Shown: positions 2,362-46,252 of the stretch, piece by piece | Layout: each line of letters begins with the position of its first letter | Position numbering within the stretch: the stretch's first letter is position 1 | From: Paenirhizobium daejeonense | GTDB taxonomy: Bacteria; Pseudomonadota; Alphaproteobacteria; Rhizobiales; Rhizobiaceae | Reading direction: 5' to 3' | DNA: 64,000 bases | Assembly (NCBI RefSeq): GCF_014280875.1 | Contig: NZ_JACLAL010000001.1 | Span: 372,001 to 436,000 of the forward strand | Notes under the pieces: model-generated | Told to the model about the DNA's origin: nothing | What the model saw: the letters and a program-made list of their open reading frames with translations, nothing else | Databases searched by the model: none | Position numbers and translations under genes: made by a program

Positions 2362-2886
2362 TCAGGGCAGGGCGTCATAGCCTTCGGCAAAGCCGGTCAG
2401 CTCGATCGGAATGCCGACCCGATCCTGGTCCGCCGATTCACGCAGTGCGAAGACCGCGTTCTTGCCAGCGCGCAGGATCTTCATCAGCTCGTCGTCGATC
2501 TCCACCTCGACATAGCAGCCTTCGGAGAAGCAGCGAGTGAAATAAGCGCGGCCAATGTTGTTGTTATCGACATACAGTTCCATGCCGTCTTTCAAGAGCA
2601 CGCCGAGCGGCGCCAGAATGCGCAACACCTTTGCCTTGCGGTCGGCGGTCTTCAACACGACGACGGAAAGGCCGACTTCCGGCCGGTCGTCGGCGATGAC
2701 GTTCTGCATCAGCGCACATTGCTCGCCGGAAGCGCCGGCGGGCGTATCACAGATGACCGACCATGCGCCGTGATTGGAGCGGATCGTGCCGGGCTGCTGT
2801 TGCTGACCATAGGCCGGCATCGAAAGAGCGGCGATCGCGATGGCGCTTGCGGTCAAACCCGACCGGAAAAGTCTCGGAAGACCCAT
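2362..2886 (-). CDS. Invasion-associated locus B (IalB) family secreted protein
   Basis: A 174-residue protein with an N-terminal signal peptide (RSGLTASAIAIAALSMPAYG) and a mature IalB-type domain. Four cysteines appear as two pairs (CDTPAGASGEQC and CFSEGC), which would suit disulfides in the periplasm. The frame extends further upstream, but ATG at 2886 is chosen because CCAGAGG stands six bases before it and the signal peptide then begins properly. IalB was named for erythrocyte entry in Bartonella; in free-living rhizobia its role is unknown. It is divergent from coxB. Confidence 0.8.
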   Translation of the reverse strand: MGLPRLFRSGLTASAIAIAALSMPAYGQQQQPGTIRSNHGAWSVICDTPAGASGEQCALMQNVIADDRPEVGLSVVVLKTADRKAKVLRILAPLGVLLKDGMELYVDNNNIGRAYFTRCFSEGCYVEVEIDDELMKILRAGKNAVFALRESADQDRVGIPIELTGFAEGYDALP

Positions 2887-3177
2887 GGGTACCTCTGGAA
2901 ATCGAATCATCCCGGACATTCTTGTCGTCCGGACGGGGAAAATGAAAGCCCCGCCCCGTCTTTTCCAGCCGAGTGAGGCATAATTGGGACCATGGTGATC
3001 TTCGCTAGTCGGCTTTCCGCGTGGGCGGGCATATCCTTTATTGCCTCGCTGCAAGCGGGAGCGTTTTGGATTTGACGATGCGCAAAAATGCCGCGTCCAG
3101 TATTAGCCGAACGTATTGCGATTGTGGCCGATCTGTGGTTTGAAACATTGAGGATAGCATGAATTCTGCGTTTTGAT

Positions 3178-3191
3178 TTGATATGGATCAA
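3178..3191. promoter_or_regulatory. FNR/FixK-type box upstream of coxB
   Basis: TTGAT-ATGG-ATCAA is a perfect match to the TTGAT-N4-ATCAA consensus of FNR, FnrN and FixK regulators. It ends about 25 bases before the coxB start, so it probably overlaps the promoter -10/+1 area or the leader, which would favour repression over activation. The rest of the 2887-3215 intergenic region shows nothing else that can be supported. Confidence 0.7.
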
Positions 3192-3215
3192 TCGCTTTTG
3201 GGAGAGACAACCGTG

Positions 3216-5788
<2,573 letters not shown>

Positions 5789-5888: not shown

Positions 5889-6845
5889 ATGGCAGTCATC
5901 GACAATCGCGATACACTCGGGTTCGAAGGCGAAGTTCGCCTTTCGGAGGCGGGTGCGCGCGATTTCTTCGCGCTCTTGAAGCCGCGCGTCATGTCTCTCG
6001 TGGTTTTCACTGCGTTTGCCGGCCTTGTGCTGGCGCCGGGCCACATCAATCCCGTTCTTGGCGCCATTGCCATCCTCTGCATCGCGGTCGGCGCCGGGGC
6101 CTCCGGCGCGCTGAACATGTGGTATGATGCCGATATCGACGCCGTCATGAGCCGCACCGCGACCCGCCCCATTCCCGCCGGGCGCATCGCGCCAAACGAG
6201 GCGCTGGCTTTCGGCCTTGTGCTTTCCGTCTTCTCCGTGTCGATCCTCGGGCTCGCCGTGAACTGGTTCGCAGCCGGGTTACTCGCCTTCACCATCTTTT
6301 TCTATGCCGTCGTCTATACGATGTGGCTGAAGCGCTCGACGCCGCAGAACATCGTCATCGGCGGTGCTGCCGGCGCCTTCCCGCCCATGGTCGGCTGGGC
6401 CTGCGTGACCGGCGGCGTTTCGCTCGACAGCATCGTTCTCTTCCTCATCATCTTCCTCTGGACGCCTGCCCATTTCTGGGCGCTGGCGCTGTTCAAGATG
6501 CGTGACTACGGCGCGGTCGGCGTGCCGATGCTGCCGAATGTTTCCGGCGAGACAACGACCAAGCGTCAGATCGCTCTCTATGCCGTCCTCACCGCCGTTA
6601 CAGGCGTCGTGCCGACCGTCACGGGACTCTCGTCACTGTGGTATGGGATTTTCGCCGGCGTGCTCGGTGCGCTGCTCGTGCTCTGTTCCATCTCCGTCTG
6701 GCGAATGCCTGACGGGGACGAGAAGATGCTGCCGGCGAAGAAGCTCTTTGGTTTCTCCATTCTCTACCTGTTCGCCATCTTCTCCGGCCTGCTGGTCGAC
6801 CACTATGTCGCCTCGCTTGCCGCCATGTTCGGAGGCGCTGCCTGA
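5889..6845 (+). CDS. ctaB: Protoheme IX farnesyltransferase (heme O synthase)
   Basis: This UbiA-family membrane prenyltransferase attaches farnesyl to heme B to make heme O, the precursor of heme A for subunit I. The 318-residue protein has the first Asp-rich motif near residues 75-90 ([15 protein letters not shown]) and a second conserved region after [11 protein letters not shown] with [14 protein letters not shown], plus about nine hydrophobic helices. The length is typical. The stop codon TGA overlaps the ATG of coxF, indicating translational coupling inside the cox operon. Confidence 0.95.
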
Positions 6846-6979
6846 TGGAAACGGTCAAGCTAAATGAGGCGCAGAAGAAATCCCGCCGCGGGCGCAACAT
6901 TGCACTCGGCCTCGTGCTCGCGGGGCTGGTGGTTCTGTTCTACGTCGTGACGCTGATTAAAATCGGCAACATGGGCTAG
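6845..6979 (+). CDS. coxF: CoxF-type small membrane protein
   Basis: A 44-residue protein: a charged N-terminus ([18 protein letters not shown]), one transmembrane helix (about residues 19-37) and a short tail. The ATG overlaps the ctaB stop, and ctaG follows 25 bases later. A tiny single-helix ORF in exactly this place is a known feature of alphaproteobacterial cox operons, where it is annotated as CoxF. Its function in oxidase assembly is not firmly established. The name rests on position and shape; confidence that it is a real gene is high. Confidence 0.85.
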
Positions 6980-7004
6980 GCCAAAGGGGGAGGGGACCTT
7001 GACG

Positions 7005-7607
7005 ATGACATCCGGTGAGACAGGGAAGGGACGGCGTAGTAACGGCACGATCCTCGCCGCTTGTCTCATTTTTGTCGGCTGCATGGTGGGCGTATCCTTC
7101 GCCTCGGTTCCGCTCTATCGCCTCTTCTGTCAGGTGACCGGCTATAACGGCACGACCCAGCGCGTCGAGCAGGCGTCCGACGTGATTCTCGACAAGAAGA
7201 TCAAGGTCACCTTCGACGCCAACGTGTCGAATGGGCTGAACTGGGATTTCAAGCCGGTCCAGCGCTCGATCGATCCGCAGATCGGCGAAACCGTCCAGAT
7301 CAGCTACACTGCGACCAATCGCTCGCCCTATGCAACCAAGGGGCAGGCGGTGTTCAACGTCACGCCGATGGAAGCGGCCGCATACTTCAACAAGGTCCAG
7401 TGCTTCTGCTTTACGGAAACGGAGCTGAAGCCGGGCGAGACGCTGGAAATGCCGGTCGTCTTCTTCGTCGATCCCGCCATCACAGAGGCGGTCGAGACCA
7501 AGGATATCGGCACGATCACGCTGTCCTATACCTTCTATCCGGACAAGGGGGAGAAGCCGGTGGCTTCGGCCTTGCCGCAGGATGGGACTGAAAAGCCGAA
7601 ATTATGA
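7005..7607 (+). CDS. ctaG: Cytochrome c oxidase assembly protein CtaG (Cox11 family)
   Basis: CtaG/Cox11 delivers copper to the CuB site of subunit I. The 200-residue protein has one N-terminal transmembrane helix (about residues 15-37) and a periplasmic Ig-like domain carrying the copper-binding CFCF pair (KVQCFCFTE) and the conserved PVVFFVDP segment. ATG 7005 is chosen because the purine-rich AGGGGGAGGGGA ends about eight bases before it; a TTG six bases upstream is too close. It is encoded between coxF and coxC, as usual in rhizobia. Confidence 0.95.
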
Positions 7608-7665: not shown

Positions 7666-8541
7666 ATGGCCGAAGCGCATCAGAAACATCACGACTACCA
7701 TATCATTGCTCCAAGCCCGTGGCCGATCACGGCATCGATCGGCGCATTCCTCATGACCTTCGGCGGCGTCGGTTACATGCGCTACCTGAATGGTGGCTCG
7801 TTCAAGCTGTTCGGCCTCGAACTCGCCCATCCGTGGCTGTTCTTCATCGGCCTGGCCGTCGTGCTCTATACGATGATCGGCTGGTGGGCGGATACCATCA
7901 AGGAAGCCCATGAGGGCGCGCATACCCGCGTCGTGTCGCTGCACCTGCGTTACGGCATGATCATGTTCATCGCTTCCGAAGTGATGTTCTTCGTCGCCTG
8001 GTTCTGGGCCTTCTTCGATGCCAGCCTGTTCCCCCATGAGGCGATCCAGGCGAGCCGAGTGGAATTCACCGGCGGTCAGTGGCCGCCGAAGGGTATCGAA
8101 GTTCTCGATCCCTGGCATCTGCCGATCTACAACACCGTGATCCTGCTGCTGTCCGGCACTTGTGTCACCTGGGCCCACCACGCGCTTCTTCATGGTGATC
8201 GCAAGGGGCTTGTCAACGGTCTCGCGCTGACGGTTGTCCTGGGGCTGCTGTTCTCCTTCGTGCAGGGCTACGAATATGCCCATGCGCCGTTTGCCTTCAA
8301 GGACTCGATTTACGGTTCGACCTTCTTCATGGCGACCGGCTTCCATGGCTTCCACGTCATCGTCGGCACGATCTTCCTGACCGTCTGCCTGCTGCGTGCC
8401 GCCAAGGGCGATTTCACGCCGAAGCAGCATTTCGGCTTCGAGGCCGCCGCATGGTACTGGCACTTCGTCGACGTGGTCTGGCTGTTCCTGTTCTTCTCCA
8501 TCTATATCTGGGGTGGCTGGGGCGCGCCGCTGGCCGGCTGA
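7666..8541 (+). CDS. coxC: Cytochrome c oxidase subunit III
   Basis: The 291-residue, seven-helix subunit stabilises the oxidase core and supports proton uptake. Family signatures are [16 protein letters not shown] at the N-terminus, the [15 protein letters not shown] loop and the terminal [12 protein letters not shown] helix. The length is the usual one for the full-length form. It closes the cox operon: a strong rho-independent terminator begins 24 bases after its stop. Confidence 0.96.
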
Positions 8542-8590: not shown

Positions 8591-8693
8591 TTGGGCTAAC
8601 CGGAATGGAGGCCGCATTTTGCGGATGCCGGTACGAGCGATATAACCGGGTATGACAGCGCCTGAGGCGAATGCCTCACGTCGCCGCCCCGGC

Positions 8694-8806
8694 ATGCTGG
8701 CGCATCGGCCTGAAAATCGGAGTCGCTTTTCGGAAAGCTCGATGCGTAGATACAGGAGTTTGGAGCGTCCTTTACGCGTCCGAATGGACGCATGGCGCTT
8801 TAAGGG
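8694..8806. repeat. Dispersed intergenic repeat, family C, copy 1
   Basis: A mosaic segment running from GGCGCATCGGCCTGA through CGATGCGTAGAT to a region around GAGCGTCC and ACGCGTCC. It resembles 62830-62925, which has the same order of blocks (GGCGCATCGGCC, CGATGCGCAGA, CAGAGCGCC, GGGTCC). GCGCATCG and CGATGCG are inverted, so the left half can fold. It stands between coxC and the DUF983 gene, probably including the latter's promoter. Confidence 0.55.
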
Positions 8807-8816
8807 AAGGAAGATC

Positions 8817-9200
8817 ATGAGTGAGGATAATTCGCATTTCGCCCCGGTCGATCCGGTGAAGGCCGGGCTTTCGGCATGTTGCCCGCGGTGCGGGCAGGGG
8901 CGTCTGTTCGATGGTCTGACCAAGCTCAAGCCCCGTTGCAGCAATTGCGGGCTCGATTATTCCTTTGCCGATTCCGGCGATGGCCCGGCGATCTTCGTCA
9001 TCCTGCTTGCCGATCTCATCGTGGTCGGCCTCGCGGTCTGGACCGAGATCAACTATCAGCCGCCGGTCTGGCTGCATTTCGTGCTCTTCGGCCCCATGGC
9101 GATCTTCGTTTCGCTCTGGCTGCTGCGGACCATCAAGGCGCTTTTGATCGCGCTTCAGTATAAAAACAGTGCCGCACAGGGAACGATCGACCGTGGTTGA
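8817..9200 (+). CDS. DUF983 family protein
   Basis: A 127-residue protein with an N-terminal zinc-ribbon-like part (CCPRCGQGRLF then CSNCGLDY) and two transmembrane helices in the C-terminal half. DUF983 proteins are regularly encoded between coxC and surf1 in rhizobia, so a role in oxidase assembly or membrane quality is likely but unproven. ATG 8817 follows GGGAAGGAAG; the open frame upstream is repeat sequence, not protein. The stop overlaps the SURF1 start region. Confidence 0.88.
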   Translation: MSEDNSHFAPVDPVKAGLSACCPRCGQGRLFDGLTKLKPRCSNCGLDYSFADSGDGPAIFVILLADLIVVGLAVWTEINYQPPVWLHFVLFGPMAIFVSLWLLRTIKALLIALQYKNSAAQGTIDRG

Positions 9201-9939
9201 CACCGGGGTTCCCGGCCGCAAGAGCGGCGGCTGGCGTTTTGCCGTGACCGTCGTCGCGGTGGCGGTCGCCATGGCCATTCTGCTTTCGCTCGGCACATGG
9301 CAGGTCCGGCGTCTCCACTGGAAGGAAGCGTTGATCGCCGATATCGAGGCGCGTCGCCATGCCGATCCGCTCGACGTTGCGGGCCTCGAGGCCGTGCTGC
9401 GCGAAGGAGGCGATGTCGATTATCGGGCTGCCCGCGCCGAAGGCCGCTATCTTAACGACAAGGAGCGGCATTTCCTCGCGACTTTCAATGGCGAGGCAGG
9501 CTTTTACATCTACACGCCGCTGGCGCTTTCCGATGGCCGCTATCTCTTCGTCAATCGCGGCTTCGTGCCCTATGACCTGAAGGAGCCCACGAACCGGCCG
9601 CAAGGCGCGCTGCAGGGCGATCAGACTATCTCAGGCCTTGCCCGCGCCCGGCTCCCCGGCAAGCCGGGCTTCATGGTGCCGGACAATGACGAGGCAAAGA
9701 ACATCTTTTACTGGAAGGATCTCGATCGCATGGCCGCTAGCGTCGGCCTGCCGGGAGATGCCGTGCTGCCGTTCTTCCTCGATGCCGATGCGACGCCTGT
9801 GCCGGGCGGCCTGCCGCGCGGAGGGGTGACCCAGATCGACCTGCCGAACAGCCATTTGCAATATGCGATCACGTGGTATGGACTGGCCTTCGCGCTGGCG
9901 CTTGTCTGCGCCTTCGCCTTCGTCCGCCGCAAGAATTAG
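9193..9939 (+). CDS. SURF1 family cytochrome c oxidase assembly protein
   Basis: SURF1 helps insert heme a into subunit I. The 248-residue protein shows the family layout: an N-terminal transmembrane helix (about residues 15-37) ending in LGTWQVRRLHWKEAL, a periplasmic domain with YTPLALSDGRYLFVNRGFVP, and a C-terminal helix after NSHLQYAITWYGLA. The start is uncertain: GTG 9193 overlaps the DUF983 stop and follows AGGGAA, while another GTG at 9169 would add eight residues. A family A repeat begins right after its stop. Confidence 0.93.
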   Translation: MVDTGVPGRKSGGWRFAVTVVAVAVAMAILLSLGTWQVRRLHWKEALIADIEARRHADPLDVAGLEAVLREGGDVDYRAARAEGRYLNDKERHFLATFNGEAGFYIYTPLALSDGRYLFVNRGFVPYDLKEPTNRPQGALQGDQTISGLARARLPGKPGFMVPDNDEAKNIFYWKDLDRMAASVGLPGDAVLPFFLDADATPVPGGLPRGGVTQIDLPNSHLQYAITWYGLAFALALVCAFAFVRRKN

Positions 9940-45941: not shown

Positions 45942-46252
45942 GATTTCTTCCCTGTTGGTGCGGGCCGAAGGCTATCCGTCTGCCGTTCGGATGAAAAGCT
46001 CAACCGCTGTGATCCGCACATGAATTCTAATGATGGAAATGCCGCAATCGTTGACTTCGAGGAGCCGAAATTTTATGGATTTGCTTCGGGTCCGCAGTTC
46101 ACCCAGGCGTCACCGCCCCGAAAGGGGAGCTAAACCTGACTTTTCGATTTTCACGACAGCCACTTTTCCAGTGCCCGGTCGGAAGTCGGTGACCACCGAA
46201 TACCCTGGTTTTTCCAGTCTGGTTTTCTGGGCACGATATCGAGGAAAAGACG
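45942..46252 (+). promoter_or_regulatory. Intergenic region with promoter and structured leader before the DUF2087 gene
   Basis: TTGACT (46051-46056), a 17-base spacer and TATGGA (46074-46079) form a plausible promoter, which would give a leader of about 165 bases. Within it, CCCC-GAAA-GGGG (46116-46127) is enclosed by CAGG (46104-46107) and CCTG (46135-46138), a nested stem with unpaired GCTAAA. It could be a regulatory leader; I cannot match it to a known riboswitch class. Nothing else is seen in this gap. Confidence 0.35.

Follow-up and report, generated by a model that had tools for sequence, protein, structure and literature searches.

In Dinoroseobacter shibae, FnrL mediates the repression of the aa3 oxidase and the activation of the cbb3 oxidase, as described in the oxidase passages of PMC5398030. 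The locus reported here resembles that system in its proposed outcome, since a low-affinity aa3 would be repressed and cbb3 activated by an Fe-S protein of the Fnr type. In contrast, the D. shibae case rests on expression data, belongs to another order, and concerns the units ctaCBGE and ctaD (PMC5398030). The aa3 coxI operon of Rhodobacter sphaeroides is a binding target of CrpK, whose sign there is negative, and because its entry is without the CrpK-only asterisk, FnrL binds it too, as far as the relevant part of PMC4263372 goes. It is thus another aa3 operon bound in vivo by Fnr-type proteins, whereas coxI is not a ctaC-first operon and was studied by ChIP-seq and arrays (PMC4263372).

Rhizobium leguminosarum provides examples in which the position of the same box sets the sign of control. 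The activating anaeroboxes of its oxidase and fnrN promoters lie at -32 to -34, a proximal anaerobox at -2 represses fnrN, and an anaerobox at +38 of fxkR9 is judged likely to be repressing, according to the promoter sections of PMC7888657. Similar to the latter two, the box described below would lie at or after a transcription start, and repression would follow from its position. The R. leguminosarum cases are regulator genes with mapped starts, whereas the present one is an oxidase with a predicted start. Little or no change of aa3 has been described as well: in Bradyrhizobium diazoefficiens, the amounts of CoxA and CoxB are the same in oxic and microoxic cells in the data given in PMC6515984, and the aa3 genes of Sphingopyxis change less than 2-fold in those of PMC6472365.

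A study of 2016 predicted FnrN/FixK sites ahead of the cta operon in Rhizobiales and FixK sites ahead of ctaCDBXGE in Caulobacterales, in the pertinent passages of PMC4999443. FnrN/FixK control of cta had been foreseen there in outline, and it is control of a known kind. The regulator family and the operon are the same; beyond what those passages of PMC4999443 contain, the present locus adds the position of the box relative to promoter and start codon, a proposed sign, and a loss in one lineage. The additions made here are the geometry of promoter and operator, the finding that most of Rhizobium sensu stricto has a decayed box, boxes at other places that seem to be independent, and an inverted repeat with partial covariation that hints at a leader hairpin. 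Among the open-licence papers listed, neither a mapped ctaC start nor an effect of fnrN or fixK on cta was found for Rhizobiaceae.

Gene context of the box

The window, meaning the whole 64 kb stretch of DNA that was analysed (G000:C1:372001-436000), belongs to a genome of 5.13 Mb in 22 contigs, and its CoxB is 98% identical to that of Ciceribacter sichuanensis, which would make the source a member of the Rhizobiaceae near Ciceribacter. The original prediction had claimed an exact match to the FNR/FixK consensus about 25 bases before coxB of an aa3 oxidase operon. All of this is borne out. The site TTGATATGGATCAA has zero mismatches to TTGATNNNNATCAA at positions 3178-3191, where it is the only exact match within the 64 kb. 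The gap from its end to the coxB ATG at 3216 is 24 bases, or 21 to an alternative GTG at 3213. The CoxB and CtaD reading frames both score above their NCBIfam cut-offs, with 192.6 bits against TIGR02866 (cut-off 147.7) and 729.3 bits against TIGR02891 (cut-off 670.75). The box and the genes around it are as follows.

2362..2886, minus strand: divergent IalB-family gene (PF06776), with 291 bases from its ATG to the box
3178..3191: FNR/FixK box (anaerobox) TTGAT-ATGG-ATCAA, the proposed FnrN/FixK operator, by exact match and genus conservation
3200..3206, plus strand: coxB ribosome-binding site GGGAGAG
3216..4100, plus strand: coxB (ctaC), aa3 oxidase subunit II (TIGR02866), with GTG 3213 as alternative start
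4115..5788, plus strand: ctaD (coxA), subunit I (TIGR02891)
5889..6845, plus strand: ctaB-like gene of the UbiA prenyltransferase family (PF01040)
6845..6979, plus strand: reading frame of 44 amino acids between the ctaB-like gene and ctaG, without family match
6999..7607, plus strand: ctaG (cox11; PF04442)
7666..8541, plus strand: ctaE, subunit III (PF00510)
8652..9200, plus strand: DUF983 protein (PF06170)
9169..9939, plus strand: SURF1-family assembly factor (PF02104)

A start at ATG 3183 within the box was discarded: relatives share the ribosome-binding site at 3200 together with a start codon that follows it, while that ATG sits in the variable spacer of the box. Elsewhere in the window, positions 46088-46141 match the COG3860 cis-regulatory RNA of Rfam (72.2 bits, cut-off 42.5).

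Conservation and the genome-wide set of boxes

A check proposed with the original prediction, whether the box is conserved upstream of coxB in related genomes, came out in its favour. Among the 63 genomes of the genus gathered by a CoxB search, the own genome counted, every one has the box before coxB, exact in 46 and with one mismatch in 17. The background outside the coxB leader holds 0 exact matches and 3 with at most one mismatch in 545,223 positions of 110 loci, some of which come from the same species. A chance match is virtually negligible as an explanation. What speaks for it is the behaviour of looser matches: at two or fewer mismatches, the window has 23 where 17.04 are expected, a number reached by 9 of 100 shuffles, so that only the exact site stands out. 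Judged by these alignments, the box is not due to chance, and the point is settled by conservation.

Outside the genus, conservation follows lineage. The best 80 named loci comprise 22 with an exact box, 20 with one mismatch, 5 with two, and 33 with three or more. The box is present at one mismatch or better in all four Ciceribacter, all four Agrobacterium, both Allorhizobium, three of four named Neorhizobium, and in the one Metarhizobium and the one Pararhizobium. The named loci without a box are mostly Rhizobium sensu stricto (R. leguminosarum, R. pisi and R. tropici, for example), a label taken here from species names and not from a computed clade; the box is found with one mismatch in a few Rhizobium, R. 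mesosinicum among them. As read from these leaders, most of Rhizobium sensu stricto has a decayed box.

A CoxB match was obtained from 133 of the 151 genomes in the family sample, and leaders were sought for 90 of these 133, namely 30 loci including the own genome and 60 further stretches. The latter came from the upper part of the list with some passed over, those passed over including entries with in-frame stops, and 43 genomes were left out. Four of the 89 leaders besides that of the window (L267, L270, L273 and L276) were unreadable. In the remaining 85, scanned over 110 bases upstream, 16 boxes are exact and 9 have one mismatch; over 150 bases upstream, 60 of 86 family leaders, own included, are without a box at one mismatch or better. 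The order sample, the best-scoring 28 of 85 genomes with a match, gave 3 exact boxes and 3 with one mismatch in 220 bases upstream, and one of its leaders, L278, belongs to the same family. These boxes lie at -121 to -205 from the aligned CoxB start, which means that the position is not kept at the level of the order.

Where the box is kept, its distance from coxB is kept too. Of 136 leaders in which a ribosome-binding site was recognised, 98 have a box (one mismatch or none) whose end lies 19-23 bases ahead of the start codon. This bears on whether the box might serve the divergent IalB-family gene and not coxB. It stands in the intergenic region that the two genes share, and the site is symmetric. 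On the other hand, it lies 291 bases from the ATG of that gene, and it is the distance to coxB that is held. The IalB-family gene was thought unlikely as the target on distance, and this reading is very improbable.

Among rows whose box has one mismatch or none, the half sites are constant and the four bases between them differ (ATGG, TTGG, GTGG, CTGG, CCAC and CATG); these rows had been selected by the presence of the box. Constant half sites around a varying spacer are the mark of a putative protein site.

The same box recurs in the genome at genes of the corresponding regulon. There are 13 exact matches in the 5.13 Mb and none to a reversed control pattern, while chance would give 1.07 from base composition or 4.1 from a first-order Markov model, both estimated from 17 loci of the own genome plus the window. 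Their neighbours include fixN, hemA, and genes for Usp, Hsp20, AdhP-like, PPDK-type and Crp/Fnr-family proteins, which are those expected of an FnrN/FixK regulon. In R. leguminosarum, a gene for a small heat shock protein has an anaerobox and depends on FnrN, according to the part of PMC11784457 that deals with it. Further neighbours of exact boxes, namely MarR, ArsR, DUF465, an S9 peptidase and a reading frame without family, lie outside the expected regulon.

The gap between box and start, measured to the start of the longest reading frame, is 52-118 bases for fixG, Hsp20, PPDK, the L040 reading frame, Usp, hemA, ArsR, an FtrB-like gene, AdhP, fixN and fnrN, and 24 for coxB. One reading frame begins at the fixN box itself. 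Other short gaps in the genome are 5 bases at a MarR reading frame and 27 at the DUF465 one, whose true start is possibly later. The exact box 5 bases before the MarR-family frame (L035:3283-3296) is a second candidate for a repressor-like placement. A further exact box (L031:3298-3311) lies between a prolyl oligopeptidase (S9 peptidase) gene, with a gap of 144, and cyoA, with a gap of 297. Through this box on the cyoA side, the regulon may touch the bo3-type quinol oxidase as well.

Promoter geometry and the outer inverted repeat

A sigma-70 consensus scan of 2880-3300 returned no promoter, and promoter blocks were therefore sought by comparison of leaders. Three conserved blocks, namely AAAAATGCCGC, TTGCG and T(A/G)TGGTTTGAA, precede the box, and an additional element was noted in leaders that bear the box.

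3084..3095, plus strand: conserved upstream block AAAAATGCCGCG; a TGCCGC-type block is present in 75 of 86 family leaders
3116..3121, plus strand: conserved promoter block TTGCGA; TTGC(G/A) is present in 83 of 86 leaders
3134..3144, plus strand: promoter block TGTGGTTTGAA (TATGGTTTGAA in many relatives), putative -10 region
3155..3160, plus strand: TAGCAT, alternative -10-like element of box-bearing leaders, noted by eye

The spacing of the blocks is rigid. With 12-24 bases allowed, 80 of the 86 family leaders show a distance of exactly 18 bases between TTGC(G/A) and TGTGG; with 20-45 allowed, TGCCGC and TTGC(G/A) are 31 or 32 bases apart in 71 of 86. Lineages without the box have the same rigid spacing. 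The TGCCGC block, three helical turns from TTGC(G/A), suggests an activator site, and the pattern AAAATGCCGCN{15,30}TTGCG is found at one other place in the genome (C20:160542). TGTGGT would be the -10 region, which places the predicted transcript start at about 3146 and the centre of the box at about +39. An alternative promoter at TAGCAT would start transcription at about 3167, with the box at about +18.

Since the blocks are upstream, the box would lie downstream of the promoter with either start. This suits repression and not class II activation. The original prediction had argued for a repressor-like position from closeness to the start codon, and at the level of sequence that position is supported by the conserved promoter blocks upstream. 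The opposite sign, in which the box activates coxB and raises aa3 at low oxygen, has a precedent in the R. leguminosarum oxidase and fnrN boxes that activate from -32 to -34, in the passages of PMC7888657 already cited. The window box fails the geometry of a class II FNR-activated promoter, a box at about -41.5 with a start before the ribosome-binding site. Class II activation would need a start at about 3226, inside coxB and beyond the conserved ribosome-binding site; the conserved promoter blocks upstream of the box also count against it. Activation is accordingly held to be highly unlikely.

Three family leaders, L216, L218 and L257, have a box with one mismatch that overlaps the T(A/G)TG(G/A)TT promoter block, in the stretches TATGGTTTGACC.. 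and TGTGATTGAT... Their placement would be repressor-like too, well upstream of the place of the window box, and they look like an apparent independent gain of the same control.

The right half of the box is also part of a larger inverted repeat, whose arms in the window are these.

3168..3173, plus strand: left arm GCGTTT of the outer inverted repeat
3192..3195, plus strand: right arm TCGC of the outer inverted repeat

The right arm begins in the second half of the box. In many relatives, the right half of the box runs into ACGC or GCGC, and the partner of this stretch is a GCGT or GCGC that starts about 10 bases ahead of the box. The conserved element could be a hairpin in the cta leader RNA that controls stability or translation, with the box merely a part of its arms, a reading given only a small chance of being right. 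Its support comes first from alignment A1, whose 67 distinct leaders were selected because they have a box with no more than one mismatch. In this alignment, 81.0% of the cells of the six outer pairs are paired, compared with 56.9% or less for slid controls, and the covariation score is 0.196, where shuffles reach 0.145 (sd 0.012). When 58 of these leaders are placed on a coxB tree, one pair changes from T-A to C-G on four branches and once from T-G to C-G; several other changes break it, and in the window it is T-T. In a folding scan of 84 leaders at 21 offsets, the mean z is lowest just after the promoter block, with -0.83 (se 0.13).

Other measures go against the hairpin. In the same alignment, there are 2 pairs changed on both sides, where shuffles give 2.3, and 6 further pair types, where they give 7.6, so that two of five measures are not above shuffles. 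The stem of the window's own outer repeat contains a T-T mismatch, and eight leaders folded one by one are no more stable than their shuffles (z -0.72 to +1.02, with the window at +1.02). RNAalifold on the 67 leaders returned the box palindrome only, without covariation, and Rfam gave no match at 2900-3400 up to an E value of 5. A second folding dip (z -0.55 at offset -48, 84 leaders) is located upstream, outside the leader. Moreover, constant half sites with a varying spacer are not required by a hairpin alone.

A different inverted repeat was seen by eye in 25 distinct leaders of Rhizobium sensu stricto (L048-L094, L189 and L190), most of which are without the box at one mismatch or better. 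It takes the forms CTGC..GCAG, CTGTGC..GCACAG and CTGCGTG..CACGCGG and lies about 40 bases before coxB. That these leaders have a repeat of their own, CTGC..GCAG, is counted for the hairpin, as an impression by eye.

Both devices could also coincide. The same bases would then be an FnrN/FixK operator and one arm of an mRNA-leader hairpin, and paired changes would keep the hairpin, also in lineages in which the operator has decayed, as a second control at the RNA level that is older than the oxygen operator or independent of it. Such a double device is a speculative and rather unlikely proposal. The inverted repeat is a lead for an RNA layer and not a finding.

Candidate regulators and proposed oxygen control

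The genome encodes candidates for the cognate regulators that an anaerobox calls for, an FnrN-like and a FixK-like protein.

C12:35255-35977: FnrN-like protein, about 9 kb from fixN

This protein has the cluster Cys17-X2-Cys20-X7-Cys28 together with Cys116 and the recognition helix ETVSR, and the second protein, on C21, has an ETISR helix and is without such a Cys cluster. We take the Cys cluster and the two helices to point to FnrN-like and FixK-like proteins. The best NCBIfam model for both is FnrL, with 226.1 and 137.6 bits at a cut-off of 300, and since that cut-off is missed, the names FnrN and FixK rest on motifs and context. The context includes an exact box 111 bases before fixN of the cbb3 operon, a one-mismatch box 118 bases before fnrN, and another at fixG, 52 bases from its start.

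Among the 86 family leaders (own included, 150 bases upstream scanned), FnrN is present in 16 of 17 genomes with an exact box versus 45 of 69 without one, with a Fisher p of 0.018 that is uncorrected for kinship; at one mismatch, p is 0.076, likewise uncorrected. An FnrN match at an E value of 1e-40 is absent from G168, whose box is exact, and from three genomes with a one-mismatch box. The two Rhizobium sensu stricto genomes of the family sample, G091 and G189, both have FnrN.

Another protein of the CRP/FNR family might use the box, for example an NnrR/Dnr-like one beside nirK, which would make the repression a response to nitric oxide. A Crp/Fnr-family gene with an HTVSR helix indeed adjoins the genes of pseudoazurin and the copper nitrite reductase (nirK). 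It is presumably NnrR/Dnr-like, with every family model below its cut-off. In Pseudomonas, the boxes of Dnr and Anr are indistinguishable, according to the corresponding part of PMC5398030. Against such a protein as the main user, the 13 kb around the nirK cluster contain no box at one mismatch or better, and candidate sites in that region, TTGCGGTTTATCAA for instance, differ from the consensus at two positions, whereas the FnrN-type targets fixN, fixG and fnrN have boxes within that limit. This reading is rather unlikely.

The box is thus probably an FnrN/FixK-type operator in the cta leader that lowers aa3 at low oxygen. At high oxygen, with FnrN inactive and little FixK present, aa3 would be made from the cta promoter, whose blocks stand at 3084, 3116 and 3134. 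With falling oxygen, FixK and then reduced [4Fe-4S] FnrN would occupy the box at about +39, or at about +18 with the alternative start. The bound regulator would hinder the exit of RNA polymerase from the promoter or its passage over the site, and aa3 would be lowered. The same regulators would activate fixNOQP (cbb3) from a box in an activating position. A CRP/FNR-type operator at about +39 may be a weak block. Regulator binding, transcription start, repression and the steric mechanism are what we infer from the leader sequences, and the order of FixK before FnrN is borrowed from R. leguminosarum as outlined in PMC7888657.

The original prediction had extended this control to a direct switch from aa3 to a microaerobic oxidase. 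Such an opposed switch is plausible in this organism, because candidate regulators are encoded and an exact box precedes fixN, in addition to the repressor-like box at coxB. It is not general, given the data on B. diazoefficiens and Sphingopyxis and the decayed box of most Rhizobium sensu stricto.

If the proposal is true, one small site would explain how a group of soil and plant-associated bacteria lowers aa3 with falling oxygen, and the proteins that act there would also raise the high-affinity cbb3 oxidase. The cta promoter would then be a simple one of clear geometry, for which most Rhizobium sensu stricto, having lost the site, would offer a natural comparison. The apparent independent gains would place the same control at another position.
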